Shown here one piece after another: positions 4,035 to 58,119 of a DNA stretch of 64,000 nucleotides (position 1 is the stretch's first letter; every line of letters begins with the position of its first letter). The stretch comes from Mya arenaria (lineage: Eukaryota > Mollusca > Bivalvia > Myida > Myidae): NCBI RefSeq assembly GCF_026914265.1, contig NC_069130.1:39859306-39923305 (forward strand). Reading direction: 5' to 3'. Made by a program: the position numbers and the translations under genes. The notes under the pieces were generated by a model. The model did not search any database, was not told the origin of the DNA, and saw only the letters and a program-made list of their open reading frames with translations.

Positions 4035-4109
4035 TTAAGTTGTAATATTTTTGAATTTGTAACTCCAGTCCACGGACATTGAATGATGATTGTTAAAAAG
4101 TTTCTGATT

Positions 4110-10015: not shown

Positions 10016-10035
10016 TATATATATATATATATATT
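10016..10035. repeat. AT dinucleotide microsatellite
   Basis: An uninterrupted run of alternating A and T, about 20 bp. A similar short run is at 17660-17676. Confidence 0.8.
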
Positions 10036-10733: not shown

Positions 10734-11154
10734 TTATCAACATTTTTAGCTGGACTATTTGAATAATAAGGAGGGTTATACCACTCGCCTCAGCATCTGC
10801 TTTGGCTTTAGCGTCCGGTTAAAGTTTAAGACCAAGTTGGGATTTTCACTCATAACTGCAAAACCCTTCATTAAAGTCACTTAATACTCCATACAGTTGT
10901 TCAGGGCCATTACATAATGATGTTAATACTTCAATAGCCTTCATTCAATGGACTTAATACCTTGCACAATTAATGATGAACATCTTACAATAAGGTGACA
11001 TAACTCCATTTTAACTAAATACAAATTATTGCCCTTTTTTCATTTTTATTTCTTATGTCAGGCACATTTATATATTCTTAACAGGGTTTTTGAAAGCTAA
11101 TTGTTTGGGCGGGCTGGTGGAAGGGTCTTCAAAGTCACCTTATGTGTAAAATAA

Positions 11155-11690
11155 TTTTAGCTAGGTTTGACATATAGTGACCAAACTTCGTATGTAGGAA
11201 GCGTTTATGAAGACCTTTCATGAGATTGCGTTTTAGGCTTCTGGGATCAATATAAAGGTCAAAGTTACTATTAAAAGCAAAAGAACTGGTATTGATTAAC
11301 TTAAAGGTCGACATATTGTGACCAAACTTGGTTTATATGAAAGTTCATACAGACTTTTTTATTGTGTTTTGGTTATGATCTAGGTCAAAGTCAGTATTGC
11401 TGAAAAGTACAAATATAGTTAGTACTGAATAAGTAAGGGGTGACAATGTGTGACCAAACTTGGTATATATGACAAGTTAATGGAGAGCTTTCATTCGAAT
11501 GCCTTGGGCCCCTTAGGGTCAATGTCAATGTTACTAAAAAAATATTACTTTTTGGTACTGAATAACCTAAGTTATGGTTGATATACTGTGACCAAACTTG
11601 ATATATAGGAAGAGTTTATTGAGAACTTTCATGAGATTGTGTTTTGGGCGCATAGGATCTAGGTCACTGTTACAAAAATAGTAGACAGCA
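11155..11690. repeat. Degenerate tandem repeat, units about 125-140 bp
   Basis: Four diverged units, each with GTGACCAAACTTGGTATATA, TTTCATGAGATTG(T/C)GTTTTGG and GATCTAGGTCA(A/C)NGTTACT. Probably another tandem-core interspersed element. Confidence 0.55.
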
Positions 11691-12116
11691 GTTGAAACTG
11701 AACTTCTTCTGCCAATCATTAACAAAACAACTATTGTCACATCACGATTACTGTTCTTTTAAATTGATTTTTCTATTGCTTTTGACAAGCACATATTACA
11801 TCATAATGTAAGAAGATACATTGTTAAAAAAAAACAGAAAATGTTAATTTGAATAAGAGTGTCCTTCTTTTAAATTTGTAGCTGTTTACTTACCATGAAT
11901 TTATCTTTAAATACAACTTGTACTTTTTATGTGTAGGGTTACGAGTTGGACCATATTGAGAGATTGTTTTAAATAGCATATGCTAAAACATACTGTGACT
12001 GTTGTTGCTGCCTTTTAATTTTATGAAAAGTATTGCTTTATTATTTTTTTAAATTCCATATTCTTAAGCTCCTTCTAATTCTTGTCAGGTAATTTTTAAA
12101 TCAAATTAATTGTTAA

Positions 12117-12486
12117 AGTGACACTCTTATTCAAAATCAATGCATACATATGTATAACAAACATACATTTTGAGTGATAAACCTTTAACTTCTTACTAAA
12201 TAATGCATTGATGGAACATATTTATTACTGGTAGCAAGTTTGTAACCCTGTATTTAATAACAGAAAACGCAAAAATATTTAATGATTGATGAATGCTAAA
12301 AGATTTACTGTGATCTACTTTAATAGTCTCATAAGGTAGATACACCATGTTTTATGCACATTTCTTTCAAATCAAAATCGGTATCCTTCATGAGAACCAT
12401 TGCTTTCAACATTCATTTATCCTTTTCGCAATATTAAAACAATAGTATTAGTAGTGGTAAACCTTTTTGGGAGTAAGAGTGCATCT
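12117..12486. mobile_element. MITE with TTAA duplication (second family), full copy
   Basis: Termini AGTGACACTCTTATTC and the inverted GAGTAAGAGTGCATCT. TTAA repeats at 12113-12116 and 12487-12490. The interior is AT-rich. Confidence 0.7.
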
Positions 12487-12906
12487 TTAAAAAATGTGTT
12501 TAATGTGGATATATTATGATCTATGTGTCATTGCATGTATGCACTTGCTAGTATTGCCTAAGAATTTGACCTCTGATATTTTATGTAGTAGTTAGATAAT
12601 ATGAAGTAAATTCTGTCAGAGTTAGTGGAACTAATGATCCATTCTTAATCATTGAAATGTACTAACAAGGCATCTCACAGTCTTATGTCTTTGTATGCCT
12701 TTGAGGTTATGTCTCCACAAATCTTTATCATGGCCTGACAGTCTGCTTTCTTTAATTTGTGTCTTTGTATTAAAAATATGTATTATTTTTAATACATATT
12801 TTATTTATAGTACTGCATTTATCTCCTATCGATTTTCATGTTTTATGTAACTTGAAACTTTCATTAAGTTGTAAAACATTAAATCTGTGAGAGTGTAGCT
12901 TTAAGA

Positions 12907-15900
12907 GAAACATTAGTGATTTTAGCATCAAACTTGTTTTATATGTTCTTTTTAAGTTCTAGGTTATTCTGTAATCATTAACCATCATTGTGCCATAGAT
13001 AGACCTGTGAAAAATTATTATAATGTACTATGTTATATTATTGAATAAAATACTGAACATGTTACGGTATGTTTGAATTTGGCTGATCATTGAGTAGTTG
13101 AGGGATTTTTATAGTCATATTTAGATTCCCACTGAACCTGAAAAGGTATACCATGAGGTTTTTTCATATCTACATTGTATATAACAGCGAGTGCTTTCCA
13201 ATGCTTTAAAAAGATATTTCATGAAATAAAACAGATATCTGATCATCTCAAACAGTGCACATATAAAAGATAATTTTTCGAAAATTTTCCTGTTCTCGCA
13301 TTATATTGAACTTTCAGTATGTACAGGGCTGGGACACAATATCATCGGTGCAATTTCCTTAATAAAATCACTTTCATATAGAATGTACAATCAAGTCATT
13401 TTATAGCCATCTTTTTGTGGATATAGTAAAAGAAAAATGTTTATTTCAATATCATGCTGCATGATGTTTCACCTTGTGAAAGAAGTGAATTTTGAGAATA
13501 TCATTTGAATATGATATTTCATTGTTTGAGAAAGTGACAATATCAAAAAATATTAAAAATATTTCCATTTTTATGAAATTCAATCCCCTCAGTGACAATT
13601 AAACAGTGCAGTGATACCTATTAATTGGTGACACACATTATTGAAAGAAGAAGAGAGGTAAGCACAGAGCTTAAACACAATGTCGATGACATAATTTCTG
13701 AAATGACACTACAGTTTCTGCATACGAATTGCTGCCTTTATCTATAAAAGTGATTAAATGGCATTCAACTTAAACCCCCGTTTCAATGTAAGAAAGCAAT
13801 ATTGTACCTATGGCTACATGAATTTGGCAGTCGAACGTTTTTACTTATAGGTACAAATTTGACTGACAAATAACAATTTGCAAATCATAGACTAATAGAA
13901 TATTTTATTTAAAAAATAAGGTAATGTAATGTAACTTTGTGAAAAGTTGTGTATACAGAACCTCATTTTATAATTCTGTCGGCCAATTCATCATGCGAGT
14001 ACGCTGAGGGTCGATCTAACGTGGAATTATATTTTGTATAATCTTTGCTTGACCGACCACAGCCTTTCCATTGAAATTTCCAGCAGAACAGAATAAAACA
14101 GATTTTCATGATCTTTTTTGACACCGAAAAATATAGAGAATTTCCGGTAAATGTGTATAACCCGGTTCCCGTAGCAGTTGTTACTCCAAGAGAAAGTGGC
14201 ATTCATGGTAAAACTCATTGCACTTTTTTTCTGCAAAATCCATAACGGCGGATTTTCTAGCGTCCAAATGACCTTTCTGTCGGCATTGGATTATCATATC
14301 TATTAAGACCTGGCAGTTTGTCCAAATCCAGGTGTAAAATAGTGAACAATATTACAAAAAAGGGTTTTCATCCAGCCGCAGTCAGCGTTGAAAGCCTATT
14401 TTACTCGTACAGACGGACGACCGCACTTCAATTAAGCAGACATGAACGTTTTTGTAACATGATGTTGTTTTTTTCTCAGAGAAAATGCCAAATATTATAG
14501 CATTTAAGGCTATTTGGGCTTTCATCTTTTGTCCAATGTGTTCTTAACCGCTCTTGAATACGCACCGAGATGGTACATCGGTTTAAACCGTTTCTACTCT
14601 TTAGCTGGTGCCTAGGAAAAGCGGATAGCCCTCACTCAGTTGTTATTAGCTGTAACCATTCCGATAGCATATGACTGATTAGCCTTAAACTTCTTTATGA
14701 GTTAAACGATACATTTCCAAAATGCCCATTCCCCCGTTTATTGGCCAGGTTTTAGAACCCGCTCTTGAACCTTTCTGCACGATCCGGGTGTTCACGACTT
14801 TTAGCAATCTACCATTCGAAGCATCTTGTAAGACCATACTTTAGCCCATTTAATTCGTGGGTTTATCCCTCAAATTGGCCATAAAAGGTAAAAACCGTTA
14901 TCGGGACTTTGCCGTGTATGTCAATTATACCGACACAAGACGTAAAAAACACCTTTTTCTCAATATTTTAAAGCGGCGGCACCTGAGATGACACGGATCA
15001 AGAGTGTGCGTCCGTCCACAAGTCTTGAGATCAAAATGGCCATATTTGAACAGTGCAAACCTTATAGGTGAACAAATTTCCAACCAGCAGAATTTAGTTA
15101 GTACAAAATATACACTTGGATCGAAGTCTGATTTTTTTTAACGTGGGATATTTAACATAAATATGGAAGTTGGTCAGGGTCACGAATGTTGTCATGGTCA
15201 AGTTATATTGACCTTCACGCATGACCACAGCCATTACTTTATCTGATCGAGGGTCTAGTTTAAAAAAAAGGAGTTAGTCAAATATGACAAATCTACCACA
15301 AAGCGGGAAGTTTACTCGGATCGAAGTGATTTGCGTGACTTTAAGGGTCGAGAAACCCTAGATCTACCTCCCTATGGTAAGTTTCAAAACAATCTCTCGA
15401 GGGAACAGACTGATCAAAACGGACATTGGGATATCAATTTTCAGAATTTGTACCTTGCTAAAATCATATGTAGCTTGTGTCAATAACTTGTTGAATTAAG
15501 TTTGATCCAGAATTAGGTATATTGTAAAATCACCACTTTGCTTTCCTAGTTATTTCGTTTTTCGTACTAGCTTTGCATTTATGTGTGTAATTATACCTAG
15601 GAATAGAGGGCTGCTCTAAATCTAAATATTTCTTACCAATGCTTAATTTTGTTATCTTTCGAGAGTACTTGATATTTTATTCTGTTTGTCTACTTGCGTA
15701 CATAATATGCATGTTTGGTTTACTCGTATTGTTTGAATATTATTGTGTTAAATGTAATTCATAATATGTGTCATTATTAGTATATATATCAATGTTTGCT
15801 CTTCATTTCATGGAGGAATAAAAAGTATCTATCAGGCTTACCTTTTACCTTTTGTGTATTAGCTTTTGACTTTGGCCAATGAGGCATTTATTACATTTTG

Positions 15901-16756
15901 TTACCATAAACGACTGAAAGTTTGTAATAATTAGCATTTTCATTTTTTTTCAATAATGAACATATCGGGGCAATGACTGTTTGATGTTAGCCAGCCTAGA
16001 ATTATCTACTCGCTCCAGTTTCTTTGCACGACTCCATATTCTAACTATTGTGCTTTGCTGGCAATGTTAACAGACATTGCGATAATAAACAATGGTACAT
16101 TCTAATTCTAAGGAAAGAATTCCGTCTGAAAGTCTCCAAACAGCAAATCTCATACATCACAAACATTACAGAAGGTTCCATACACATGTTCGTGTGAAAT
16201 TCATTAATTATGAGGCAAAATCAGAGACGTTCACTCAACAATGCTACAACGAACAACTAGACCCGTAATAAAATTTTATTATAAGATCATAAAACATGAC
16301 TTCAAGCATTTGATTTATAACAAATTATAACAAAACAGGAATTAAATGTTTTTTTATAAAATGAGTCCAAATAAAACAGTGTAATATATGTACTGTAACA
16401 TGTGTTCTCAGTAGTTACATAAGATGTTGTGAAACAGCACGTGAAGGTGTACTTATAAGTGTGTGTACAGCTTCCATTCAGTTTACTGCCGTCTTTTACT
16501 GCAATTATTTTAAAATCGTATATTATTCATACCTAGCTTTCATTATGTGCAAGGGGTACCCAGCATGTACACATACAAGTGGTATTTAACAATATCTTCA
16601 ATTACTTATGCAATATAGATTGTTATATCATACTTAAGAAACAATTTAAGTTAACATTCCACATTGATAAAATGTGTATAAGCGAATGTATGACCTTAAT
16701 TATTTGTACAGAATTGGGCAATTTCAGTTTCTTCTTCTAACATTTTTAGCTAAAAT
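12907..16756. other. AT-rich intergenic DNA, no gene recognised
   Basis: No exon chain or conserved protein block seen on either strand. Frames near 13963-14236 (minus) have no recognisable similarity. 14990-15430 contains short phrases common in bivalve interspersed repeats (GTGCGTCCGTCCAC, GGTCACGAATGTTGTCATGG) but no clear borders. Confidence 0.35.
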
Positions 16757-16761
16757 CTTTC

Positions 16762-17078
16762 AAGTGACTCTTATTCAAAATCAAAATATACACATGTATG
16801 AAACATACATTTCGACTGATAAACCTTTAACTACTTACTAAATAATGCATTTATGGAAAATATTGATTCCTGATAACAATATTGTAACTGTGTATTTAAT
16901 TCCTAAAATTAAAAATATTAAATGATTGGCGAGTGCTAAAAGATTGATTATGATCTTTATGTTTCCTGCAACCTTCTTTCAAATTCAACTCTGTATCCTT
17001 CATAAGAATCTTATTTTTTTATATAAAAAACAATCATATAAACTGTGGAATATCTAATTTGGGAGTAAAAGTGCATCT
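16762..17078. mobile_element. MITE second TTAA family, second copy
   Basis: Starts AAGTGACTCTTATTCAAAATC and ends GGGAGTAAAAGTGCATCT before TTAA. Interior shared with the copy at 12117. The left TTAA is mutated. Confidence 0.6.
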
Positions 17079-17489
17079 TTAAGCATAACAGAGATTGGAT
17101 TCCTATTGTAATACTTTAATCAGAATCATTCCTTACATTATCAAAATCTAGATATTGCAACAAATAATGGAATTCACCAGTTGAACATTTACAGTGTAAA
17201 CATAGTCTCTGCCTTATCTTTTAAAATCCACAAATGTTTCTTTTGCTGTTCTACAATTAAATAACAAAACTTGATATAAAGGGTTATACGATAATTGTAA
17301 ACATTTATCAACACTTAATTGATTATTATACTACATATAATACAATACATACTGTTCACTACAGGCACTAAGAAGAACTGATCAATCAAAATTATATTGT
17401 TTGACACCAACAGATTTATGAAAAGAATGTCTTTAGATCGATCCTTCTGGTTCCCTTTTGTTTATCCACATAAAGGATGAAGCACTGAG

Positions 17490-17830
17490 CTACAATTCCC
17501 TCCAAGCCTTCAGATTAAGTAGTTGCACATGCCGACACAAGTAGATTGGATGAAGACGCTGTGGAAAATCTGCCTCAAACCTGAAAGAGGGATATGAATT
17601 TCTATAACAAACATATTAATTCATAGCTTTATAGACAATCAACATTTTTCTTATGTAATTATATATATATATATATAAGATATTTATGCTTTGAACTTTT
17701 AGTTACAACCATGTAAATAATTATTAACATACATTAAAATCAAGACGTGATGTATTTCTGGTGGAACTTCTGGTGGAACTTGTTGACCTTTCTCAACAGC
17801 AAAGCTGGAAGCCAAAGTTGGAAGTCTGTG
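17490..17830 (-). other. Possible extra 3' exons of the SGNH-KDZ locus
   Basis: Two stretches follow good acceptors on the minus strand. TTTCAG precedes FERTDFQLWLPALLL (about 17838 downward), and TTTCAG precedes FEADFPQRLHPIYLCRHVQL ending WREL-stop (17490-17582). They share an F-E-x-x-F/D-F start, hinting at related C-terminal exons. No frame link to the upstream core can be shown. Confidence 0.25.
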
Positions 17831-18031
17831 CGCTCAAACTGAAACATACTAACAAACACAGCAGAAACCGAAAACAATTGCAGATGCAGTGATAATTACT
17901 AGTCAAAAGTATACGCAAATGAGAAAGTCAAACAAATATATATAAGAAGGTGAATGAAATATAAATTAAACATAGTTCATTTGATCATTTTATGATGCAC
18001 AGCTCTCTGAAAATCAAAGTTGTTATACATT

Positions 18032-18475
18032 TCATAAAAGCCCAGCTAGTGCAGTGCTGATTTTCCTCTTGTAAGCAACTCTTTTTCTCCTGTTCCACTC
18101 ATGAATAAAGAACTGAAGATAGAAACAGAAATGAGATTGTGTCATTTGTCTTGCTGATTTCTTCAGAATCTGGATGAAGCTGTTGAACTGTTCGCAGATT
18201 TCTGAGTTCACACTTTCAAATCCTTGAAGTCGAGAGCTTCTAAAAGAAGTAGAGCATTTGTGTGAATAACCATGAAAAATATCGTGAAAAAATCTAACAT
18301 TCTTGTAGTACCCACTCTCTCTGTTGAGGCAATATTCCTGTAAGTTACAGGCAAAGTCATAAAACACTGCTTGTGGAGGTTTGGCTAGATGAGAGTATAA
18401 TGAAGCTGATGGATCTTTTCTGCCTTCAGCCACTGTCATGTGGAATCCATAGCAATGACCAGTGATCTGGACAAA
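18032..18475 (-). pseudogene. SGNH-KDZ locus: transposase C-terminal catalytic half
   Basis: Open segment with GHCYGFHMTVAEGRKD, FYDFACNLQEYCLNRESGYY, FHDIFHGYSHKCS, and NSEICEQFNSF. The Asp of YDFACN (codon near 18358) and the Glu of EICEQ fit the second Asp and the Glu of an RNase-H-fold D-D-E core. The D-x-F-H-x3-H-x-C cluster is like that of KDZ transposases. Family naming is from memory of these motifs, not a search. Stop at 18032. Confidence 0.65.
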
Positions 18476-18489
18476 ACCAAAGAAACAAG

Positions 18490-19405
18490 TTAGATGTGCC
18501 GGGTGCTGATTGTTGTATTTTTAGAGTAAATCTTTCTGCATCGCTCAAAGTCCATAGCTTCATCATCATGGTCATTGTTTCTGCCTGCTCGGTCCTCATC
18601 TATCTGAAATTTGCGTACATTCCTCAGTTTAACACCATGTTCATTGAAGTAATAAGCCCGGCCCAGCTTCTCAGGGTTGTATGTTCCGAATTGAAAAGTA
18701 GCATCCTCTGGGGCATAAACTGGTAAGTTTAGAGACTCATTAGTAAGATGAACTAGAAAAAGTTTAATGTCATCAGGTAGAATGTTGTTATTGTTCAACA
18801 TTGATCTCCTGCAATCAAGTCCCGTATTTCTGGAGCAAATGATCTCATCTCATACATCTGTCTGTTAAACTCAAAATCTGAAAGATTTTCATTAGTTAGA
18901 AATTCCTGCAAGAAAGTGCATATTCTGGTGACAAAATGCTTGTCACAGATGCTGTTGTAGCCAACATCTTAAGGACAGATGCATAAGCTACTCTTTCAAA
19001 TTCTGACATCCCTCGAGTAAATCGCTGGAATGATTGATGAGCCTCCTCAGGTAGAGCCTGCATAAGTAAATTAATTCTATCATTATTTTCTGGAATATCT
19101 AACGGTTCAAATTCTGCAAACTGTAGTTCGGGCTATATTATCCAATGCTTCACGATAAGCAATCATCTGTCTCTTTTCAACTCCAGGCTTATTCTTCAGG
19201 TAACATCTGTCCATCCGTCGATGCAATGTTTGCTGTGTCTGTAAAGAACTATCAGGTGTACTTATTTCTGTGAAATTTGAATGACGGAAACCTACGCCAC
19301 TCTGGTTCCATCACAGCACAAGTCTATTAGGCTCATACCTACAAATGTCACATGGTTGTCTGAAATCAATGTTCATATTAGCTGCCCAACTAAACCACCA
19401 TTTTA
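18490..19405 (-). pseudogene. SGNH-KDZ locus: transposase core, frame-broken
   Basis: Similarity continues in changing frames: WWFSWAANMNIDFRQPCDIC, then a DGT at 19310-19312 (presumed first catalytic Asp), VGFRHSNFTEIST, EFEPLDIPENNDRINLLMQ with ALPEEAHQSFQRF, FLTNENLSDFEFNRQMYEMR, then NNNNILPDDIKLFLVHL. Frame breaks lie near 19405, 19315, 19288, 19125, 18905, 18805 and 18535. Nearly all are single-base slips rather than nonsense changes. Consistent with a decayed, not very ancient copy, or with assembly indels. Confidence 0.55.
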
Positions 19406-21300
19406 AAAAAAACTGTTGCATCCATAAACTTGGCCTTTGGGTCACGAGTTCTGTAAAGTTCATCCTTCATCTGACAGTATGCTGAAAAAGTGCAACCAGT
19501 TTTCATTACTGATGATGTAAACTCCCATCCTATTTCGTCACCTGCAGCTGTTTTACTACTAAAAACATGAATTGATTCACTCTGGCCTTCATTCCATGCA
19601 AGTTCACAGCGACTGTCGTCTATCGGGTTGTAACAGACTCTTTTGTAAACATCACACTGCACAGGCGCAAACTGTGTGTAAACTGTAAGAACTCGACCTA
19701 AAGGAATCAATTTCCCGTTTTCAGAGTAATCTGGATCATCATCTCGCTTCAACCATCCAGATCCACAGCAGCATGTATTGTCTGGCATATCTGGATAGAA
19801 ATTGGGACCCTTCAATGAACCATCAGCCTGCCTACTTAAGGTCAAATCATTCCATCCGTCACGTTTGATGATGTTACGCCTCAACATATCACTCTCTCTA
19901 GCTGCTGCTGGATGGCTGCTCTCACACTTATACTTCCATAGACCTGTTTCAGGATCAAAATTGTCATTAGTATCAACAGGATCACCATCACCAGCATCAT
20001 CATTTGTTTCATCATCTAGTAGTTGGTCATCTAAAAAAGTTTCATTAGTGGCATTTCTTTCATGCAAATCAATCCAGGATTCTGGATTATGTTTCAGCAC
20101 AAATAAATGTCTGCAAAGATTGGAAGAATTCAAGTTATTTAAATATCGTTTGTGTCCCTTCTTTGATTGACACTCGCCATTGTGACAGGTCACAGTATAA
20201 TTTGCTTTGGCCTTGTTGTGACTCAGTGATAAAAAAACAGGTTTAGTCTCTCCTTCTGCCAAAACTGAAAATTTCCGTGTACCATTAAAGTCACTTAATT
20301 CAATCAAATCCTTGCCAGCACACTGCTTTCCCTCCTGAACAAATTTACGGGTTTTGGTTTCTGTAGCCCTTTCATCTATCTGTAGATTTGGAAGAACAAT
20401 ACACTTAAGGAATGTACAGTGCATGCAGCTATTCCTGTTTGAATAATTTAGAGTTTGGCTATGAGCTATATCAAATAAAGTTCTATATATACTGCAGGTA
20501 CAATGGAAGTAGTCTCCAGATTCTTGTTTTAGCCAAGTGGTATAAACATACACTTCTTTTCTTAAAGAACCAGAATCATTATAATCATTCATACAACATA
20601 TCATGGTGTCTTCCTCAGCTACCTGAATATATATCTTTCCATCCTCTATTAAATCAATAGAAAATTGTTCATACATAGATTTTTTTGATTCCTGCATAAC
20701 ACTCAATGGCTCCACATCTTTTGTCACCTTCACAGAGGCTGTGCTTTTCCTCTTCTTAGATGGCCTCTCTAGTGCAGGAATTTCTAAAACCTCACATTGA
20801 ACCGCATTTAAATCTGGGTAATATGTTCTATACTTAGTGAAAATTGTATTAATTTCATTCTGCAGAAAGAGACTGAAAGTAAGATATCTAAGTGATGTTC
20901 TGAGTCGAGGTTTTTTCTTGTTTATGAAGTTGGATGCAAATTTTGGATCACCTTTGAATAGTTCGGTTTTTCTTTTGACGTCACCTGGTAAACAATTTAA
21001 TGCCTTTGACTGACTTAAAAGGGTTTCTTCTCCTTCATATTGCTGCTGAAATATTTCCCTCGAGTTTCGAGGAACCTGTTCCAATTTTGAGTGCCTAAAA
21101 TCTAAAAGCAAAGCTTGAAGACGGTCTTCCTTTCCTGCAGTACAAGCATCCATAAACTTGGCAGTTGAGGTTGAAGAAAAGGGCAAAATTGATACTGCAA
21201 AGGATAAACAATTAATATTATCAGTGTCCTTCATTTGTCTTGTATCAGCAATACCTGGAATGAATTTTTGCTTAAAGAAATCATTAAGTCTGCTGCTGGC
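19390..21300 (-). pseudogene. SGNH-KDZ locus: SWIM and Cys-rich domains of transposase
   Basis: Open for over 600 codons. Counting from the Met at 21234: a nuclear-localisation-like PSKKRK near 158-163; a SWIM motif C245-x-C247 with C270-x-H272; a second SWIM-like set C350, C355, C374-x-H376; an acidic linker (405-425); and a Cys-rich module (CCCGSGW at 488, C527, C534, C543) of the sort found before KDZ transposase cores. It ends at a frame break in a T8/A4 run near 19405. The following frame reads WWFSWAANMNIDF, a conserved-looking continuation. Confidence 0.65.
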
Positions 21301-22100
21301 TTATATGTATTCGGCTTTTCCTTTTTATCTTTTATATGATCAGATTCCATGTTCTGTATATCTTCCACTGTTAATGTATTATGCAAAAACATATTATTGT
21401 CAGTGTAATGAAATGTATCTTTGATTTCTTGCAAATATTTCTGTTCCATTAGGCCAGCATACACTCCAGACTCAACATAGCGGATGTACAGATATTCAGC
21501 ATTGTCTACAATGATTTTAAATACATGACAAACAAAAACACCTTTGGTGCAGGTTTTGGCTGATGCTAATAGAGCAGTGTCATATTCTAACTTAAGAAAA
21601 CTTAGTTTTTTGCAATCAACAATTCCTTCTTCTAAAATCAAATTCAGAAATAAGTTCTGCATAGTTATGGCATGAGAACAGAATTGTAAATTTGTCAGCA
21701 AGATACTTGACCATTCATTTGGAAATGTACAGGAAGCTTTTCTTTTTACAGGCTTTAACTTAGTTCCAGAATGAGAATTTGAACTTAATTCAGGACGTGA
21801 AGTTTGGACAAAGTGGAATTGATATTTTCCACCATGGAACTGCCTGTGCTTGCGGACTTTTGGATCTGGACTTAAAAGTGAATCAGTGTCATTTTCCTCA
21901 AATTTACCATTATAATCTGACCAGTCTTCACCTAACAAAAGTCTTTTTTCAAGAATTTTTTTCTCAATATTTAAGAAATTTTTAGTATAATGATTACTTT
22001 CCAAATCCAGTGTACACAGGTGGTCGCTCATTGTGTAGGATTTGTTTGTCGGCATGTCCAGGTAGTCCTCATCAAACAGTAACAACTTCAGCTTGCTTCT
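21231..22100 (-). pseudogene. SGNH-KDZ locus: N-terminal part of transposase region
   Basis: Begins after acceptor TTTTACAG at 22101 with SKLKLLLFDEDYLD and stays open to a stop at 21231. It contains a region rich in Leu and acidic residues and a predicted beta-rich stretch (GVFVCHVFKIIVDNAEYLYI). Near 21231-21297 the similarity moves to another frame (RLNDFFKQKFIPGIADTRQ) that leads into the next segment. No short intron I tried rejoins the two frames, so this is scored as a frameshift. Confidence 0.6.
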
Positions 22101-22200
22101 CTGTAAAAGACATTGAATATTTGTGAGTGAAATATTGCTGAAAAAGACTCCTTTATTTCCACATTGAGTTCAAATATGGAAACTATTGAAAAGGTCTTAC

Positions 22201-22302
22201 CAGGTGTTTTGGACAGAAGCGTAAATCAGTGGTTTCTGGGTCGATTCTTTTTTCTGGGAGATATTCCAGCCAATCATCTAGGGAAGGAAAGGTGATTCTG
22301 TC
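22201..22302 (-). CDS. SGNH-KDZ locus exon 14
   Basis: Thirty-four codons: RITFPSLDDWLEYLPEKRID, then TTDLRFCPKHL. Phase 0 at both ends. Acceptor TATTTAG, donor GTAAGA. No named domain, but a D-D-W-L-E-Y-L-P segment leading into the transposase looks like a conserved element linker. Confidence 0.65.
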
Positions 22303-22520
22303 CTAAATAAAAAATCATTTGGGAAATAAAATTGACAGAAAGATGTCTAACAGTGTCATACATGAACACAAGGGAATGAAACAGCTAATTATTTATTGCT
22401 CAGTAGGTTAAGGAGATCATCATGGCTATTGATAAACCCTGTCATTACATTTTTAATTTTCTATTTAGTGTTATAAACATGCAAAAAAGTTAAACATTAC
22501 AAAAAATTTTTGCACCATAC

Positions 22521-22697
22521 ATCAAAGAAGTGGTCGTGTATAATGTGTAACTCCAGGTCTTCGTAGCTCGTTCGCTGAAATCCATTGCATTGCGCCCATT
22601 TGCATTCCTCTTCTCGTCCATGTTGTCGCAGGTGTTGTCCCATTCTGGTTGTTGTTAGCCCGATGAATCCACAATTATTCCATTCACAGTGATAGGT
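22521..22697 (-). CDS. SGNH-KDZ locus exon 13: two C2H2 zinc fingers
   Basis: Fifty-nine codons. Finger 1 is TYHCEWNNCGFIGLTTTRMG followed by QHLRQH: C475-x4-C480-x12-H493-x3-H497. Finger 2 has CKWAQC then LELHIIHDH: C503-x4-C508, H522, H525 or H527. The wide x4 Cys spacing recalls GLI-type fingers. In frame directly after the 2A motif, so it would form the N-terminus of the downstream product. Acceptor CCCCAAG, donor GTATGG. Confidence 0.8.
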
Positions 22698-23008
22698 CTT
22701 GGGGACAAAAACAGAAGAAATTTGTTTATATGGTAAATAAATCATTTAATTTTTTCTGAATTATTACCTTCATTCAGACCATAGAAAATGCAAAATTTTT
22801 ATTACAAATCTGTTATATTGCATGTTTCTTAATATTAGTCATTAAAGCAAGACCAGTTTAAACTGTTTTATTTTTTTAAATGTCATAAACAAACTTTAGG
22901 ATAACATGCAGAAGATGAAGGTTGGCACTTAACTTAATAATAGTAACTTTATATTTCATAAATTTTGATCTCTTCATTATTTTCATGTTAACATATTTTA
23001 TAACTCAC

Positions 23009-23091
23009 AGGTCCAGGATTTTGCTCAACATCATTTGATAAAAGTAATTTTAATTTGGAGAAATCGGCGTGATCTGCGATATCCAATTCAT
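23009..23091 (-). CDS. SGNH-KDZ locus exon 12: 2A-like ribosome-skipping motif
   Basis: Encodes ELDIADHADFSKLKLLLSND then VEQNPGP. The tail DVEQNPGP fits the 2A consensus D-(V/I)-E-x-N-P-G-P, preceded by a Leu-rich stretch as in known 2A peptides; the residue before the Asp is Asn rather than the common Gly. 2A motifs make the ribosome skip the Gly-Pro bond, giving two proteins from one mRNA. The exon ends exactly after the final Pro codon, with an excellent GTGAGT donor. Predicted break between G470 and P471. Activity is inferred. Confidence 0.85.
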
Positions 23092-23241
23092 CTGTAAGAA
23101 AATCACAAATTTCTGAATTCATGTACACTTGAGCCTTAATAACTTTTATTTTTACACAGATATTAAGTTGATAAGTAAGTGTTGACAAAAAGAAGCATGA
23201 ATAACATGAAAAAATTATATAAACAATGTTTGATTTAGTAC

Positions 23242-23356
23242 CCAAGAAAGAAATTAAACCTTGATGGGGAGGTGAAGTTTTTTCTACAGGGTTCAGGCTG
23301 GATGTTGAAATGGTGCTCTTCGAGTTTGGCTGACTTCTGCTGCTCTTCGTTGATTT
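23242..23356 (-). CDS. SGNH-KDZ locus exon 11
   Basis: Ser/Lys/Pro-rich linker (KSTKSSRSQPNSKSTIS, then NPVEKTSPPHQGLISFL). Acceptor GAACAAG, donor GTACTA, phase 0 in and 1 out, which joins exon 12 as FLDELDIADH. A second frame (EINEEQQKSAKLEEHHFNIQ) is also open but meets a stop when joined to exon 12. Confidence 0.6.
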
Positions 23357-24402
23357 CTTGTTCGTAAATTGTAATAAAATAATTTCATTAAACATTAATA
23401 TCCATTTTTATTATTTTAACATTAAAATTACCCTAATGGAAAGTTCATTATATATAGATGATGCTTGTTTTGTTTTTCAATGTAATATTGTAATTTATTT
23501 CACTGAACGAGCAAGATAAATGTCATTTCAGAAAGGATATCATAAATTTATAATTTGAGTTCCTGGACCCTGTTTGCACTAAAGTATGGTTTTGACATTA
23601 AAACTGACTAAAATTCAGAACAGTGTAAATAACCATTTTGTTTTACTGATAAATTTCTTTTATTAGACAGAAAGCACATAATGAATATTACATATTAATC
23701 TGTCATTTTTGGCATTAATTCAATTAAATTTGATTAACATTACAATGAATTGACAATTATTGACAAGCAAGAATCATTGATTATCTAATGAGCATTAAGA
23801 TTCAGTAAATAAACAAAACTAATGCATATATACAATTATAAACATATCTTTCACTGGGGATGAGGGGAATGTCACATAGAGAAAGTAGACAATCCAATGT
23901 ATCTTACGCCAATATAAATTTATTGCCACATTTTCATCAAATTCTTGTTTTAAATAGTGGTTTGGGTTGTGTGTTTTTTATAAATGACTGTATCACATTT
24001 GGATATGTGTTCATGGCTCTGTCTTATTGCATAACACAATGTAACAATCCTCCCTTTTTACATGTAAATGTTTACATCAACACCAGCTGGTATCAATTTA
24101 AACTGTTTCCAATGCCTGACAAATATGCAAGACGGTTAGACCCGTGTTGAGCATTTTTATATCAGTCAATAAATTTAAGGGGCCAGGGGGAAATTTCCGA
24201 AAAGGGGGTGGGGGATCAAAATATACCAATTTAATCATAGCCACCTTATTAAAACTTACAAAGTAGTCATGTAAGAAATGAAGATGCCAATGACTATGAA
24301 AAATTTATTATACAATGTATAATTATAAACTAAGAGGTAAAACTCATTCACTGATATAAAAAAAACTTGTTTACCGTACTACTCAGTAAATATCTAACAT
24401 AC

Positions 24403-24537
24403 CCGATGACAGAAAGAATTGTCAGTGTTCTTCTTGTATTTGGTCCCTCCAGGTACATGGCGTCGACAGAAATGGTCCAGTAGGAAATCTTCTCTAGAAC
24501 ACTTCACTGGGCATAGGGGGCAGTCAAACCATGTCTG
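24403..24537 (-). CDS. SGNH-KDZ locus exon 10: C2H2 zinc finger
   Basis: Forty-five codons with FDCPLCPVKCSREDFLLDHF and CRRHV: C366-x2-C369, then H382-x4-H387, a C2H2 finger likely to bind nucleic acid. Phase 0 at both ends. Acceptor ACTGTAG, donor GTATGT. Confidence 0.75.
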
Positions 24538-24901
24538 CTACAGTTAACGGACACAATGCATTCAATATTTCTTGCTTCAAGTTATAAAATGAGGTTTTTA
24601 CAATTCACTTCGTAATATTGCACGTTAAAACATTTCAACAGAAAGCATCAAAGCAATACACCAAAACATTCTTAGAAATAAATAGAAAAAAAATATGATA
24701 ATAATAATAATGCAAACTCAAGGGCTATAACTCTGATTTTACTAAATGAAGCTGGGAATGAAATCCTCATAGATTAACAAAGGCATTGGTTTTGCATTTG
24801 CCTACCCTTTTTTTATTAAATTATTGGAAAACTGAATTGTATTTAATTTAAATGATGCTGCAATTTGTTACAAATTGCAATTTCATGTAGCATGTTCTTA
24901 C

Positions 24902-24982
24902 CTTGTTTATCTTCTTAACTCCAGTCATTGTAGAGCAGACAGGTAGGCGCTTCTTTGTGGTAATGGCGTCTTCTTTCGTGCA
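24902..24982 (-). CDS. SGNH-KDZ locus exon 9
   Basis: Twenty-seven codons, CTKEDAITTKKRLPVCSTMT then GVKKINK, phase 0 at both ends. Acceptor ATTTAG, donor GTAAGA. Basic linker before the first zinc finger; no domain recognised. Confidence 0.65.
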
Positions 24983-25177
24983 CTAAATATGCAAGATATC
25001 AAAGCATTTATTATCCATAACCACCATCAAAAGTGTTTCTTCTCTCTATTTCAAGAACACATCAGAACACTAGGACATTGTTATGGCTCAGAAAATGATT
25101 AGGATTAACTTTGATAATTATGTTGATTTTAATCTTCTTTGAAGAAACTACATCACTACAGGAATATTGTAACTTAC

Positions 25178-25261
25178 CATCCAGATGCTATGTACATTGT
25201 CTGCCTTCACCTTTACTGTTACATCAGATGTCAACGGAATTTCAACGTGATCTTTATACTG
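25178..25261 (-). CDS. SGNH-KDZ locus exon 8
   Basis: Encodes QYKDHVEIPLTSDVTVKVKA then DNVHSIWM, donor GTAAGT. The obvious acceptor (TTTGTAG, exon start 25268) adds a partial codon plus SE but needs phase 2; the inner AG (exon start 25261) keeps phase 0. The coding frame itself is clear and joins exon 9 in phase 0. Confidence 0.55.
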
Positions 25262-25368
25262 CTCAGATCTACAAATATACATGTGGAAACATAATTGTAA
25301 CATCAATTAATTGATTTGACAAGTAAATTAAACAGAAGCTTTAACATCAGTAAATATATTTCATTTAC

Positions 25369-25434
25369 CTTTGAACTTTCAGCTGTCTGTGTTGCGTAAA
25401 TTTTCTTCGCCTTGCCCTTCAATGTTTGTTTGAT
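25369..25434 (-). CDS. SGNH-KDZ locus exon 7 (acceptor uncertain)
   Basis: With acceptor AACCACAG/ATC it reads IKQTLKGKAKKIYATQTAES plus SK, a basic linker, donor GTAAAT. A stronger acceptor (ATATTTAG) lies about 64 bp upstream, at 25498 or below depending on exon start, but reading from it meets a stop in each frame. Treat the frame here as unproven. Confidence 0.4.
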
Positions 25435-25843
25435 CTGTGGTTACATGGTCTGGCTGATCTAGCACATTCATCAACCTAAATATTAATAACAAAAAACGTT
25501 GGCTACCTTCTGGGTATAAGTCAATCAGGATATATAAAAATATAGCAAAATATGGAAATGTTTCAGGTTGTTTAACCCTTGTCCCTACCAAAGGTAGACA
25601 AGAAACAGACATGCTTTAAATGTTTTCATCAATGAATGTATTTAAGTTTAGTTATGTAAATGCTCATTAAATTTTATTAAAATTGTTGCATTGCCCATCT
25701 GAAACAGCTTAACAGGCTTTCAAAAAGAACACCAGCACAGGAATCTCAGATTGACATAAGTTTTTTTTTGCACTATTACCTATATTTATTAAATAATTAT
25801 GTTATAATATATATTTTAAGTACAAAACAAACATAACAGAGAC

Positions 25844-25909
25844 CTTCAATACATTGCGCCTTGGTAACTTCACATTATGCTGCACTGAGGGTAACATCTG
25901 GAACTTCAG
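25844..25909 (-). CDS. SGNH-KDZ locus exon 6 (acceptor uncertain)
   Basis: With acceptor CCAGCAG/CTG the frame is open (LKFQMLPSVQHNVKLPRRNV), 22 codons. The more canonical acceptor just upstream (TTCTTACAG/CCA) would read PAAEVPDVTLSAA and then an in-frame TAA. The exon is therefore either slightly re-spliced or carries a stop. The donor GTCTCT is weak. Confidence 0.4.
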
Positions 25910-26536
25910 CTGCTGGCTGTAAGAATAAAACAAATGTTCCTTTTGCGGTCATAATATGAAGTTCAGTTCATCCGTTTTATGAAGTCACTATAATTAAGAA
26001 TAACCTTTGTTATCTCCTCTGAATAGAGGCATTTTCAAAATAAAAGAACAGTGGTACAAAATAGGAATTAAGGCAAAAAAACACACAACATATTTGATTC
26101 TTCCATGCTAAGGTTAAAACACTTGACATTGACCACTTTTGCCTTAGTAAATAAGTGTTAATTTACTTTCGACACAAAATAGATAAAATATATATTAGCA
26201 CAAGCCCCATCCATGCACTGGTAAAATGTGTTTTGGCTTCCTCAATTTCTGGGTTTTATACTGCAGGGCTTGTTAAAAAAATCAAATGCCAAGCATTTAT
26301 ACATGAATTCGGGCTTGTTCATCCGAAAGACTAACTTGATGACTGACCAAATGTTACGAATATCAAATTAGAAAAGGTTCATAATTGTTTGAATTACCTG
26401 TAAATGATAACTTATGAATGAACATCCTATATCTACCAACCAACACAAGCATCTTATCAGAGAATTCAATGCTTTTGATAAATTATAACTATTCATCTAG
26501 CAAATGCCATCCATTTAGAGCAAGTGTTGTATTTAC

Positions 26537-26636
26537 CAAACGGACTATTTCCGAGTACAAAGGCTGCTTGCTGGCCTGGACATTCTGGTCACTGACTGGT
26601 TCAACAGCAGCTGCCAGGCTTTGAAAATAGTCAGAG
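26537..26636 (-). CDS. SGNH-KDZ locus exon 5
   Basis: Thirty-three codons of linker (SDYFQSLAAAVEPVSDQN and so on to SEIVRL) with no recognised domain. Acceptor TTTTTAG, donor GTAAAT, phase 2 in and 0 out. Clean frame. Confidence 0.6.
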
Positions 26637-26994
26637 CTAAAAATAAGGCACCAGGAAAATATTGTTTTTAGTATCTCAGACGTAGGGAGTTAGGAACACC
26701 ATATGAACTATAATTAAATGGACATCCTTCTTTTAACTGACTAACATATTACAAACCGAACAAGAGTCATACTTAACCTTGCATCATACAACAAGCAATT
26801 AAGTGAGACAGTATCGAACAATGCCAACATTTAATATAATTCTTATCATTGTAAAATATTTCATGTTAATTCATCAACACGACATGTTCATCTTATACCC
26901 TTAAACAACACTGAGGTAATGACAATATTCGGATATTTTACACAGGCAAAAACTAATTAACTCAGCTGAATTGAAATGTATTTGAAACAAATAC

Positions 26995-27182
26995 CACTGG
27001 TCAAAGCTTGATGCATCAATCTCTGCTGAATGTGGTTGGCGTATGTCTTCATTCCAATGTACATCCTGCTGATAGGCTATTTCACTCCAGGAATACACAT
27101 CCTCCTCAATCACCTGACTACAATGTCTACCACCAACACGACTCAGATGAAGTCCATCACGACCCAACACATCAGCACATTC
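26995..27182 (-). CDS. SGNH-KDZ locus exon 4: SGNH block V
   Basis: Begins ECADVLGRDGLHLSRVGG. D174 and H177 form the D-x-x-H of SGNH block V, completing the Ser-Asp-His triad. It continues into an acidic, aromatic linker (EEDVYSWSEIAYQQDVHWNE). Acceptor ATTAAG, donor GTATTT, phase 2 out. Confidence 0.7.
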
Positions 27183-27351
27183 CTTAATTGTATATAAAAA
27201 CAGAATGCATGGTTTAACAAACTTTTCAATCATTGGAATATTAAGTCTTCATCTTTGCTATCTTCAATATACTATCTTGTTAACCGAGATACAGAAACAA
27301 AAATAATGATATTGCTCATATACTGTTTTTGAAAAAGTTGGTGAATATTAT

Positions 27352-27494
27352 ATAAATATTGCATGCCTTCCAGTGTGACAGTACATATTGTTAACATGAG
27401 GGAAATACTGTTACCCGAGGAGAAGCCGAGGGTAACAGTATTTACCCGAATGTTGACAATATGTACTGTCACACTGGAAGCCATGCAATATTTA
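27352..27494. mobile_element. Long palindromic fold-back element in intron 3 of the SGNH-KDZ locus
   Basis: Arms of about 63 bp, from ATAAATATTGCATGCCTTCC to the inverted end GGAAGCCATGCAATATTTAT, almost perfectly paired through GTGTGACAGTACATATTGT and ATACTGTTACCC, around a short GAGGAGAAGCCGAG centre. Confidence 0.8.
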
Positions 27495-28039
27495 TTTTAT
27501 TATACCGAACACAGTTACATTTATATACATGATATATAAGATTTTTACCATAACACAACTTTCAAGTTTAATCTATTTATTCTGTAATTATTGTTTGTTT
27601 ACTTTAGCTGTCATTTTGTTGCAAATGTTGTTTAGAAATAAGGCAAACACCGGTTGTAACCAGATTCACAATACATTTTAATAAGCGCTTACCACTTCAG
27701 ACTTGGGAAACCAAAAAATGCCTATTTTAAGATGTGCGTGCTATGTGACAGTATCATGTCAACCGGTCAAAACGATACTGTCAGTGTGTGACAGTACGAA
27801 ATTGCCCATGATGGGAATATGAGAAATTAACATGGGCAGGTCACGTGACTTATAATAATGATATATGTATACCAATGAAATAAACAATATCATTATGACA
27901 ACCCATATCCACAAAGGCATAAAAATGCATTACAGTTACATATTTCTACCTGTCTATATAAATAAGGATCATCTTAAATTTGCCAAATACCTACAACTTT
28001 TATTTCTGTATTGCATAAACTTATTTTGTTGATTTATAC

Positions 28040-28250
28040 CTGAGCTCCATATCCAAGGAATCTGATGTATGGGATGGCCTCTGAAATGTCCATTAGCATG
28101 GTGTTAGCATTCTGGATCCATCTGTTGAAGACTCTCGCTAATGTTGAAGATACTCGTCTGTCATTCTTTTTTCGTGGCAGAATAGAACATAAAACAATCT
28201 CAGTTTCCGGACTCGTCTCGTGGATACTATCACATACCTCAGTGACTCTC
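28040..28250 (-). CDS. SGNH-KDZ locus exon 3: SGNH core
   Basis: Encodes VTEVCDSIHETSPETEIVLC then SILPRK and a tail ending RFLGYGAQ. The hydrophobic strand followed by S-I-L-P-R is typical of the region between blocks III and V in SGNH hydrolases. Acceptor TTTCAAAG, donor GTATAA, phase 2 in and 0 out. Confidence 0.7.
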
Positions 28251-28565
28251 CTTTGAAATAAGCATACATTATTAGACTATTAATAAAGCCAAGGCAAACA
28301 AGTAGTGACTTCTTCAAATAAAGCATTATAAAGTCGTAATAACACTTTGTCATAACTTTCTTGAATCAGGCATATTTCATAACATTAAAACTTGAGGAAA
28401 AGGAGATTAAATAAAATTTCATAAATTGTTTTGTTACTTAGTAGACAAAATGTGTGTCATAGAACTAGAGTACGCCAAAGGGAGTTTTTAAAAACTGGTA
28501 CCTTGACGAAGCTTATTGAAAAGACTGCTTCGTACGTAATAGAATCAAACATATTTAATGTGTAC

Positions 28566-28698
28566 ATATAAAACACATCCTCTCTGGCTTGAACATCATT
28601 GGAGCTAAGATGAATATAGACACATGGGTAAAACTCCTTCTTCAATGAAAGCTGCAGAACTGCCACAAATCCCTTCTTGTCATTCACAAACTTGGCTC
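28566..28698 (-). CDS. SGNH-KDZ locus exon 2: SGNH block III
   Basis: Continues the hydrolase with YPCVYIHLSSNDVQ. N84 and D85 sit where block III (GxND) of SGNH hydrolases has its oxyanion Asn, but the usual Gly is Ser here. I place the donor at TATAT/GTACAC so that phase 2 joins exon 3. The frame stays open beyond it to a second possible donor (GTACCA), which would not fit the next exon's phase. Confidence 0.6.
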
Positions 28699-28751
28699 CT
28701 ACAATTGAGGTAAACTGAACAATGGTAGCTTTTGTTTTTATGTTTTCTTTA

Positions 28752-28919
28752 ACCACGACCCCCCCCCCCCTTTGGGTCCAGAATACCGGTGACTTTGACT
28801 CTCGGTCCAGCAAATCCCGGGTTTAACCCCAGCCCTGTGGGGACAAACTGCTAACCCTAACCCCGGTAAGGACCATTTCTTGGGGGGGGGGGGGGGCCTG
28901 GTTACAATTGACTGATGCA
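28752..28919. mobile_element. GC-rich MITE copy 4, left end lost
   Basis: Right terminus GGTTACAATTGACTGATGCA. The left begins at AACCACGACC with a C10 run; a G14 run is near the right end. It lies in intron 1 of the SGNH-KDZ locus, about 55 bp upstream of exon 2. Confidence 0.65.
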
Positions 28920-29174
28920 TTAATAATATTATTTTGGTATTGGATGGTTCAAATCAATCAAGAAACATTTGATTCAATAATTAATATGGAATGGAATATG
29001 CAGTACCATATCTTGTGATATGATTGGCGCATGGAATTTAATTGGTATTAAATAAAAAAACATTTTTCCTTTTCTTTTCACATAATACACTGTTTAAAAA
29101 GTGGTCGTGTGGAGTTCTTGTTTGTCCATATACATAAAAAATTTATTCAGTTTAAATATAAACAGTAAAAAACA

Positions 29175-29320
29175 GTAAAAATAAAATTTATGGTCCAGTG
29201 AAACAGCCTTGAGAAGCCTTTGCACAAAATTAATCACTGGAATGCCATGCTAGTGCAATCATGGGTTCAAGCCACACACAGGATGCACTCTTTCTCGTAG
29301 ATAAATGTGTTAGCTTTGTA
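29175..29320. mobile_element. SINE-like fragment
   Basis: A B-box-like CATGGGTTCAAGCC follows TGCCATGCTAGTGC. The phrase AAACAGCCTTGAGAAG recurs near 55797. Borders unclear. Confidence 0.3.
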
Positions 29321-30004
29321 ACAGTACCTTGTTTGTTAAAATCGGTGCATAATTAAGGGAAAAACAGCGGTCAGATTAATGTTGGTATCATTTTCCCATA
29401 CATTGAGTTGTTTACCTTTCAGTATATTATATATAAAAATAGATAAAAAAAAATTACCACACGCTAACCACCTGTGATCGTAAACTTCAATCTGCCAAAT
29501 AAAATTTGTAAAATAAAAATCGTTTATTACAAAAAATCCGAATCGGGATTTCCGAAATATTGCTACATGCGCAAAAAGCCATTCTCAGTTTTAACACATT
29601 CTATTAACTTTAAAAGTAGCGTTTCGGGAGATTCTCTTAAAACTAAATAGCAAATATACCTTTAAATCGACGAATCGATGTTTTTAGAAGTTGGTGGTGG
29701 TCGTCTTTTTCCAATACTCGTTTATTAATCTTCGTCGTCTGTCATATCCGGATACGAACCATCCGGATACATGTTTCTTATTGTCCGATCGGAAATTTCC
29801 GTAATCACCCGACGCTATCTTAACCAATCATATAGCTCGATTGGCAAGATGTAAATAGGTTCGTTAATTTCCGGCTTTACACTTCCGGAAAACTCACCTT
29901 TCGTACCCATATTGTTCGAACATAACTCGAATCGCTCCCTATACCCATCCCTCCCTAGAAAAAACTCAACGGATTTACATATATATATTAAAATCGATCT
30001 GTGG

Positions 30005-30218
30005 GGCCTTAAATCCGGAATTCCGGATTAATCCGGAATTTTAACATCCCTGGACTCTACATAAAGCCCAATCTCGGCTTAATTTGGCGCTATGACAAAA
30101 ACACCGCAGTCACCCGGCCCTGCGGGGCCACCTGGAAAGTAGAAACATGGCCCTTTTCACCGGCTATCCCTGGTATTCCCCCGGACCTGGGGGGGGGGGG
30201 TTACAATTTACTGGTGCA
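30005..30218. mobile_element. hAT-like terminus abutting truncated GC-rich MITE copy 5
   Basis: CCGGAATTCCGGATTAATCC with a following TTTTAACATCCCTG resembles a CAGGG-type hAT end (minus orientation). Immediately after it, from about 30052, is a GC-rich MITE matching copy 2 in inverted form, ending TTACAATTTACTGGTGCA before TAA. One element probably truncated the other. Confidence 0.5.
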
Positions 30219-30460
30219 TAACATAGCGTTTACAGTAATAACCATCAAATATATCAGGGAAAATTGGATACTATAAGGAATAAGGTCTTCGGGTTGATGA
30301 AATATGTCGTCTGCAAAACTGAAGGAGACTATAAGTTGAATATTGTGGCAGATTATTTGGGTCATAATACATTCACTAACATCTTTATGCAATATTGAAG
30401 CAAAATAGTTCGCCATAATCATTTAAATAACATCCATTTGCCTTTTAAAAATGTGTGTAC

Positions 30461-30611
30461 CTGATACTGGGAGGCATCGAATAGTGGACCAATTTGGAAT
30501 CGCTGCTTGGATACGATGTACGTTGGAATCACCTGCCACAAGCGCACTACCAAGACATCCACTTGAATCTGCAATGGAAGAAAACACACGCTCCTCGACC
30601 TGGATGTGCAT
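30461..30611 (-). CDS. SGNH-KDZ locus exon 1: SGNH block I
   Basis: Opens at ATG 30611 (MHIQVEERVFSS) and encodes LGSALVAGDSNVHRIQ. GDSN at residues 27-30 matches block I of SGNH/GDSL hydrolases, with S29 as the presumed nucleophile. Donor GTACAC, phase 1 out. A second acceptor (CCATTGCAG) inside the exon is in the same frame, so an upstream first exon is possible. The frame at 30729-30920 is a candidate I cannot connect. Confidence 0.65.
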
Positions 30612-30719
30612 CTCGACAGAAAAGAAAATATAGACAAATACTGCTGTTTTTTTTTAAATAAAGTCGCGAAATCAAATGACGATTCACAATACAAGCGAAA
30701 ACGCGATAAATAATTCTAG

Positions 30720-31380
30720 GAACTTAATTCAGTCACAATTATATTCAAAAAAAAGGCGCGAGTAGTATTTTGATTTAAATCTCAGTTTCAATCTCAAGAA
30801 ATTCGAATCAAATCTCTCTCGTGAGCTTTCCGTGACAGAAAGCATCAGTTTCCGGGTCATTTCTCCAGAAGTGTGCGTAGATCGTAACCTTTGCAATACG
30901 TCATGTGCTATTTTAAGCATTTTCCATATAAGGTAATCCTCTACTTCCGATACCGAAAAACTTACAACAGGCCTCTCTTACAACTCGGCTTTCTCCGGCA
31001 AGATTCAAAATAGACCACATACACACTCAAAATTGGCCGTCGGTCGCTTTCATTGGGTGGCTGGGTGAGCCGTAGGGTTTACATCGTTTCTGCCTGGCTT
31101 CTCGAAACTTATTGAAGACATTCCGAACAAATCGTAACAACTCGGCCTACTCCGGCAAGTTACGAGATAGACATCCTAAATAGTAGTAAGGATGCACGAA
31201 ATGTGATGAGGTCGCCGGCGAATAACACAATTTTTAATCCGCGTAAAGAAGGCTCGCTGTGCTATCAAAACAACAAGGAAATGGATTTGGGTTGTTATTA
31301 CTTGTTTCAGAAAATATATTTATTCAAATATCAAAGTATTTCCGCATCTTAATGTTTAGAAGTTCTTAAACTTCTTTACA
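30720..31380 (-). promoter_or_regulatory. Presumed upstream/promoter region of the SGNH-KDZ locus
   Basis: Sequence before exon 1 is locally richer in CG than its surroundings. It includes two related segments (near 30978 and 31137) sharing an AACTCGGC...TCCGGCAAG pattern followed by a purine-rich AGATAGAC/AATAGACC. A 63-codon open frame starts at 30920 (MLKIAHDVLQRLRS) but no donor connects it. Promoter status is inferred only from position. Confidence 0.25.

Positions 31381-36310: not shown

Positions 36311-58119
<21,809 letters not shown>

Follow-up and report, generated by a model that had tools for sequence, protein, structure and literature searches.

DNA transposons of the Kyakuja-Dileera-Zisupton (KDZ) group are the closest described systems to the element reported here. 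The Zisupton gene has several exons (PMC9297572), and target duplications of 8 bp for Zisupton and 7 bp for Kyakuja have been reported (PMC12730594). Some fungal DNA transposons, KDZ elements included, carry a TET/JBP dioxygenase (PMC12730594). SGNH esterases have been acquired by long interspersed nuclear elements (LINEs), long terminal repeat (LTR) retrotransposons and Penelope-like elements, where their role is speculative (PMC3905857, PMC5408684); the LINE ZfL2-1 encodes an esterase-type protein in open reading frame 1 (ORF1) (PMC3905857), and bdelloid LTR retrotransposons have a GDSL ORF3 (PMC5408684). The 2A or StopGo sequences were reported in viruses, non-LTR retrotransposons and sea-urchin NLR proteins (PMC4981915). 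We analysed a window of 64,000 nucleotides from the clam Mya arenaria (assembly GCF_026914265.1, contig NC_069130.1, here called C9, positions 39,859,306 to 39,923,305). One locus in it is, with a probability of about 0.8, a copy of a cut-and-paste transposon from the KDZ group, 30-35 kb long in the four copies whose length was determined, in which one multi-exon gene encodes a polyprotein with an SGNH hydrolase, a 2A sequence and a transposase.

The clam element resembles the KDZ transposons in its PF18758 domain, its DDE (Asp-Asp-Glu) triad, its Cys/His pair motifs, its terminal inverted repeats and its multi-exon gene, but differs from the described elements by the additional upstream SGNH part and 2A sequence, by 4-bp target duplications and by its length of about 30 kb. 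The fungal TET/JBP-bearing transposons likewise have an accessory enzyme on a DNA transposon, whereas the enzyme of the clam element belongs to the SGNH hydrolases, shares a reading frame with the transposase and is linked to it through 2A. The LINEs of the ZfL2-1 type share the mobile-element SGNH esterase, but they are described as retrotransposons with a coiled coil and without a transposase. The clam element, in contrast, is bounded by inverted repeats, and no Pfam match to a reverse transcriptase was obtained in the exons and 3' frames submitted, a search that did not extend to smaller or split frames. The bdelloid GDSL ORF3 is also an enzyme of this class acquired by a mobile element, but, as described, a separate open reading frame of a retroelement. 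With the non-LTR retrotransposons the clam element has the D(V/I)ExNPGP motif in common (PMC4981915), but here an accessory enzyme precedes it and a DDE transposase follows. The texim gene of fish Helitrons (PMC4021074) is an SGNH hydrolase mobilised by a DNA transposon, but is described as Helitron-associated and not as part of a polyprotein with a DDE transposase. The sequence-only reading from which we started knew of no DNA transposon described with this layout, and none was found in the titles and abstract openings listed on KDZ/Zisupton, 2A-like sequences and esterase transposons, a scope that does not take in Repbase or the papers that first described Zisupton and KDZ.

The ends of the element were determined by comparing the window copy with five other copies of the Mya genome (A to E); a diverged Mya subfamily, F, was used in addition. 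At the left terminus the homology starts abruptly at the same base in all six copies, with unrelated sequence outside. The left terminal inverted repeat of the window copy (GAGAGGCCTGTTGTAAGTTTTTCGG) lies at 30953..30977 on the minus strand and is matched by the right end at 19 of 25 bases, the inner 13 being identical. The element covers 1..30977 of the window on the minus strand and has its far end at C9:39858972, 334 bp beyond the window, which gives a total of 31311 bp. The right terminus was also located in copies B, C and D, whose lengths are 30306, 34834 and 33478 bp, respectively. For A and E no right end was found; their similarity to copy B stops at B 32718 and B 32796. Exact 4-bp target duplications flank B (ATTT/ATTT), C (CAAT/CAAT) and D (TTGT/TTGT). 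The window copy has TAAG/TAAG, shifted by one base: the left TAAG at 30977..30980 (minus strand) shares its G with the first base of the terminus, and one G may have been lost here. The sequence flanking B, C, D and the window copy is incompatible with duplications of 7 or 8 bp. Because of the 4-bp duplications, the element was filed as KDZ but neither as Zisupton nor as Kyakuja. The terminal repeats and target duplications that the sequence-only reading had proposed to look for around the copies are thus present, and its extent of 18032..30611 was far too small.

The element is present in many copies. At least 101 matches to the transposase exon were found in the genome, which were reduced by hand to 56 places. 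With a 148-bp query from the left end, 26 identical sequences were seen among the best 40 of 74 genome candidates, and copies B and C are 99.8% identical across 18.5 kb. The family has spread recently in Mya, and population data could therefore reveal whether it is active.

The gene is encoded on the minus strand of the window and runs from 30611 to 18032 in 15 recognised exons. Its product contains, in this order, the SGNH hydrolase, a basic linker, a C2H2 finger, the 2A/StopGo sequence (LLLSNDVEQNPGP), two C2H2 fingers, Cys/His pairs and the KDZ DDE transposase. All internal exon boundaries have an AG acceptor and a GT donor, and the exon phases fit on both sides of the 2A sequence; the start of exon 1 was placed at an ATG. 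The SGNH blocks, in their conventional numbering, are found in exon 1 (30461..30611; block I, GDSN; also in gene model P0052), exon 2 (28566..28698; the Gly of block II and block III, SSND, which reads GSND in copies A-D), exon 3 (28040..28250; SGNH core, VLCSILPR) and exon 4 (26995..27182; block V, DGLH). Exons 5 (26537..26618, also in P0052) and 6 (25844..25916) encode a linker, and exon 7 (25369..25475) encodes an Arg/Lys-rich stretch that we take to resemble a nuclear localisation signal. Exons 8 (25178..25268) and 9 (24902..24982) are followed by exon 10 (24403..24534) with the first C2H2 finger, by exon 11 (23260..23356) with a Ser-rich linker that is also found in gene model P0004, and by exon 12 (23009..23091; LKLLLSNDVEQNPGP), at whose very end stands DVEQNPGP. 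The two further C2H2 fingers are in exon 13 (22521..22697), which ends with the junction GAT/gtatgg at 22521/22520. Exon 14 (22201..22302) leads to the long exon 15 (18032..22100), where the Cys/His pairs, presumably of the SWIM type, precede the transposase core. All these motifs are on the minus strand at the place given in the sequence-only reading, but its claim of in-phase exons throughout does not hold for exons 6, 7 and 15, which are broken in the window copy. The remaining part of the element (1..17980, its 3' part) contains tandem repeats and has a longest open frame of 128 amino acids in copy B and 124 in the window copy. A second gene in these 17 kb was considered and rejected, as ten frames of copy B gave no Pfam match and none exceeded 128 residues. 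The window contains no Rfam match and no tRNA.

The window copy is inactivated. Relative to copies B-E, it has an additional base in exon 6 and a TGA stop in exon 7. Exon 15, a single frame of 1380 amino acids in the five copies A-E, is split into several frames, and the CDGT motif that contains the first catalytic Asp lies out of frame. The SSND of exon 2 retains the catalytic Asn. Gene model P0005 equals the frame-shifted letters of the window copy at 112 of 112 positions, which suggests that MAR_004888 is the annotation of the window copy. Exons 3-12 are missing from copy A, as is the stretch B 5559-11488; B has an exon 1 that is short by one base, and the GSND word was searched for in E and not found. 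Two of the six copies, C and D, are clean in all checks made, which covered exons 1, 2, 4, 6, 7, 12 and 15.

The transposase was identified by Pfam, as the sequence-only reading had expected. KDZ (PF18758) matched the window at 18032-18517 with 2.6e-11, above the cut-off, and the open frame P0001, which is the exon 15 frame, with 2.9e-09. In the predicted structure, the transposase has an RNase H fold that carries the DDE triad, and one structure comparison matched this model to DDE transposases and integrases. Foldseek with the model returned nothing below 0.001, and searching the PDB with a profile of the transposase alignment produced no match above chance level. The CxC and CxH pairs of exon 15 are conserved, but no SWIM profile matched in the window part tested. 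Likewise, the Pfam matches to C2H2 fingers, those of exons 10 and 13 included, stay below the cut-off in the window and in related proteins. Fingers and SWIM, both named in the sequence-only reading, are thus present as motifs, but not as profile matches.

To follow both halves through the Mya genome, the upstream-half protein P0052 was used as a query. The search gave 92 rows, with 91 of 532 candidates scored, and at least 45 places, of which 43 were matched in the SGNH part. A place was counted as paired when a KDZ place on its own strand followed it downstream by no more than 25 kb. This was the case for 28 of the 45 places and for 26 of the 43 SGNH places, at actual distances of 3.7-10.8 kb, which confirms the expected multi-copy homologues with the same order. 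Of the 17 SGNH places without KDZ, the one inspected (C8:16736432) was considered as a separate SGNH gene and rejected: it is an internal-deletion derivative in which B 8578 is joined to B 21406 with a loss of about 12.8 kb. This near-identical derivative (C8:16733287-16741700, L059) has kept the left end and the SGNH exons and has no exons 7-15, and the other SGNH-only places may be of the same non-autonomous form. Conversely, no scored P0052 place was seen upstream of 28 of the 56 KDZ places, copy A and subfamily F among them. In F, the SGNH exons are present but diverged.

Subfamily F contains the peptides of exons 1, 2, 3, 4, 10, 12 and 14 (7 of 14) in order before the transposase, with 31-75% identity (63% for exon 10 and 52% for exon 14). 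It therefore keeps the SGNH part, the first finger, the 2A sequence and the transposase in order, the transposase frame being split in two. No counterpart of exons 5-9, 11 and 13 was found in F, nor were any fingers of the exon 13 type. Outside the transposase, the DNA of F resembles that of B only in short repeats and in the 2A core. Between F and the B type, pS is 0.85 and pN 0.40 in the SGNH part, and pS is 0.75 and pN 0.30 in the KDZ part. Since pS is saturated while pN is 0.40, the SGNH hydrolase has been under selection at the protein level within the lineage of the element.

At least 49 transposase-like proteins were found; besides Mya, the named sources are Mercenaria, Dreissena, Mactra, Mytilus, Argopecten, Hydra, Hydractinia, Clytia and Lineus. 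A single Mactra gene model, P0017, contains GDSN, GSND, DGLH, the 2A sequence and most of the transposase; it has no C2H2 motif, gave no Pfam match and stops inside the KDZ core. The occurrence of these parts in order within one Mactra protein, together with the seven exon peptides of F, shows that the motif set has not arisen by chance. A search for further full-length SGNH-2A-KDZ models returned P0017 alone. Mercenaria P0007 starts inside the SGNH domain, so that half of it is followed by a finger, the 2A sequence, two fingers and KDZ in one model; the SGNH part shows 35% identity to Mactra P0053 across 139 residues. Dreissena P0056 (SGNH) and P0009 (finger, 2A, two fingers, KDZ) have a common linker with 52 of 60 residues identical. 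The protein P0018, which falls among the mussel-like rows of the tree, contains a finger, the 2A sequence, two fingers and KDZ; its model includes no SGNH part, which may lie outside its short contig. The 2A core was absent from the cnidarian and Lineus models examined, which may lack their start. In a tree of 39 KDZ proteins, the five rows with 2A fall within a clade of 17 rows whose named members are all bivalves; the 2A label did not cluster when compared with shuffles, P0001 being counted as lacking 2A as it is the exon 15 frame only.

The identity of the upstream half was tested in the relatives, where Pfam Lipase_GDSL_2 matched with up to 7.4e-11; the best value for a window exon, exon 3 taken alone, was only 0.15. 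In every aligned relative that covers them, the catalytic residues of block I (Ser), block II (Gly), block III (Asn) and block V (Asp and His) are retained. This agrees with the SGNH assignment in the sequence-only reading. With profile matches to both SGNH and KDZ, and with the one inspected SGNH-only place being a deletion derivative, neither of the outcomes that this reading had named as contradicting it was seen. The predicted model has an SGNH fold, and its best fold matches are platelet-activating factor (PAF) acetylhydrolases and other esterases. In a PDB search, the best sequence match of the SGNH profile was 4c1b, an ORF1-encoded protein (E 0.0012) that we take to be the ZfL2-1 protein. 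With its basic stretch and finger, the upstream product probably acts in the nucleus as an accessory enzyme synthesised together with the transposase. A binding or dimerising module like the OSK domain of Oskar, with the 2A product being structural, would fit the basic stretch and the C2H2 motif in the same protein and the weak Pfam OSK matches (0.0089 and 0.024, below the cut-off). We regard this as unlikely, since the complete set of catalytic residues and the esterase-like predicted fold speak against it.

The 2A sequence has the core (D/G/C/N)(V/I)ExNPGP with a suitable upstream motif. The core is found in 11 of 58 proteins (six from Mya, two from Dreissena, one each from Mercenaria and Mactra, and one other), and six of the 11 also have GDSN; GSND and DGLH are added only in Mactra P0017. 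The core is preceded by N in most Mya, Dreissena and Mactra sequences and by G in Mercenaria and P0018, G being the residue favoured in the viral 2A set (PMC12846837). When compared by eye with the same source, the upstream residues resemble the LLLLSG-like class; a motif with features in common with that class was active in the assays of that study (PMC12846837).

The reading as a single polyprotein has caveats: the window copy is defective, the fused Mya models skip exons, and models P0052 and P0002 contain one half each. The half models would suit two adjacent genes of one transposon with their own promoters and a vestigial NPGP, as would the numbers 012233 and 012236 of Mactra P0055 and P0010, whose contigs have the same length. 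This arrangement is improbable, because the 2A octamer is unchanged between subfamilies saturated at synonymous sites, the frame is open through 2A in the Mactra and Mercenaria models, and the exon phases fit on both sides. At its C-terminus, P0052 (isoform X2) runs into the intron that precedes the 2A exon, which would yield the upstream half only, and other Mya models (among P0003, P0004, P0013 and P0019) jump from exon 3 to exon 11; these are possibly alternative products or artefacts of the prediction. That a host SGNH gene was recently captured or landed in, the esterase being passenger DNA, would recall the fish texim gene (PMC4021074) and the SGNH exons retained by the deletion copy, but is largely refuted by the SGNH part ahead of 2A-KDZ in the saturated Mya subfamily and in Mactra, Mercenaria and Dreissena models and by catalytic blocks conserved at the amino-acid level.

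For the polyprotein, the following course is proposed. One mRNA would be made from the multi-exon gene and translated until the nascent LKLLLSNDVEQNPG stalls the ribosome; the chain would be released between the Gly and the Pro of NPGP, and translation would restart at the Pro. The upstream product, with the SGNH hydrolase domain, the basic stretch and the C2H2 finger, would probably be nuclear, where the hydrolase might strip an acyl or ester mark or act on a nuclear lipid. The downstream product, with two C2H2 fingers, SWIM-like pairs and the RNase H-fold DDE core, would bind the terminal repeats, cut and join the ends and leave the 4-bp duplications. That one mRNA indeed gives rise, by StopGo, to a DDE transposase and to a nuclear SGNH hydrolase with catalytic activity, and that this hydrolase is needed for transposition in the bivalve lineage, is put forward tentatively, and we would sooner expect part of it to fail. 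If true, 2A/StopGo would serve a cut-and-paste transposon as a means to co-express an accessory enzyme, and the element would be the DNA-transposon counterpart of the esterase-bearing LINE ORF1 proteins and of the TET-bearing fungal transposons. Since a DDE DNA transposon should make no RNA intermediate or particle, its SGNH part would also argue against a purely particle or ribonucleoprotein role of element esterases and offer a new system to test this.

Several further repeats and elements were seen. Beyond the right terminus of the window element, at a distance of about 15 kb (C9:39843801-39844268), the same strand contains another KDZ exon copy with a shorter open frame of 275 amino acids. 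The left flank of copy B (L034, 1810-2421) contains frames that by eye look like what we take to be a Polinton-type DNA polymerase. A short dispersed repeat, CAATTGTAACC followed by a C run, occurs in the introns and the 3' part of the element (copy B 3408, 5127, 31707 and 31985) and also in subfamily F (L053:2416-2456). The flank of copy C (L037/L056) resembles a dispersed repeat near exon 1 of F (L053:1988-2050; GGGATACAA...GTGCGATACCCTAGCT), which is a possible empty-site comparison. Tandem repeats of 169-171 bp, belonging to one family, were found in inverted orientation at 9092-9689 inside the window element and at 33532-33851, about 2.6 kb outside its left end, and similar arrays are present near copy A. 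Outside the element, the window contains two minisatellites, at 40050-41481 (19 bp x 75) and at 42754-45414 (55 bp x 48).

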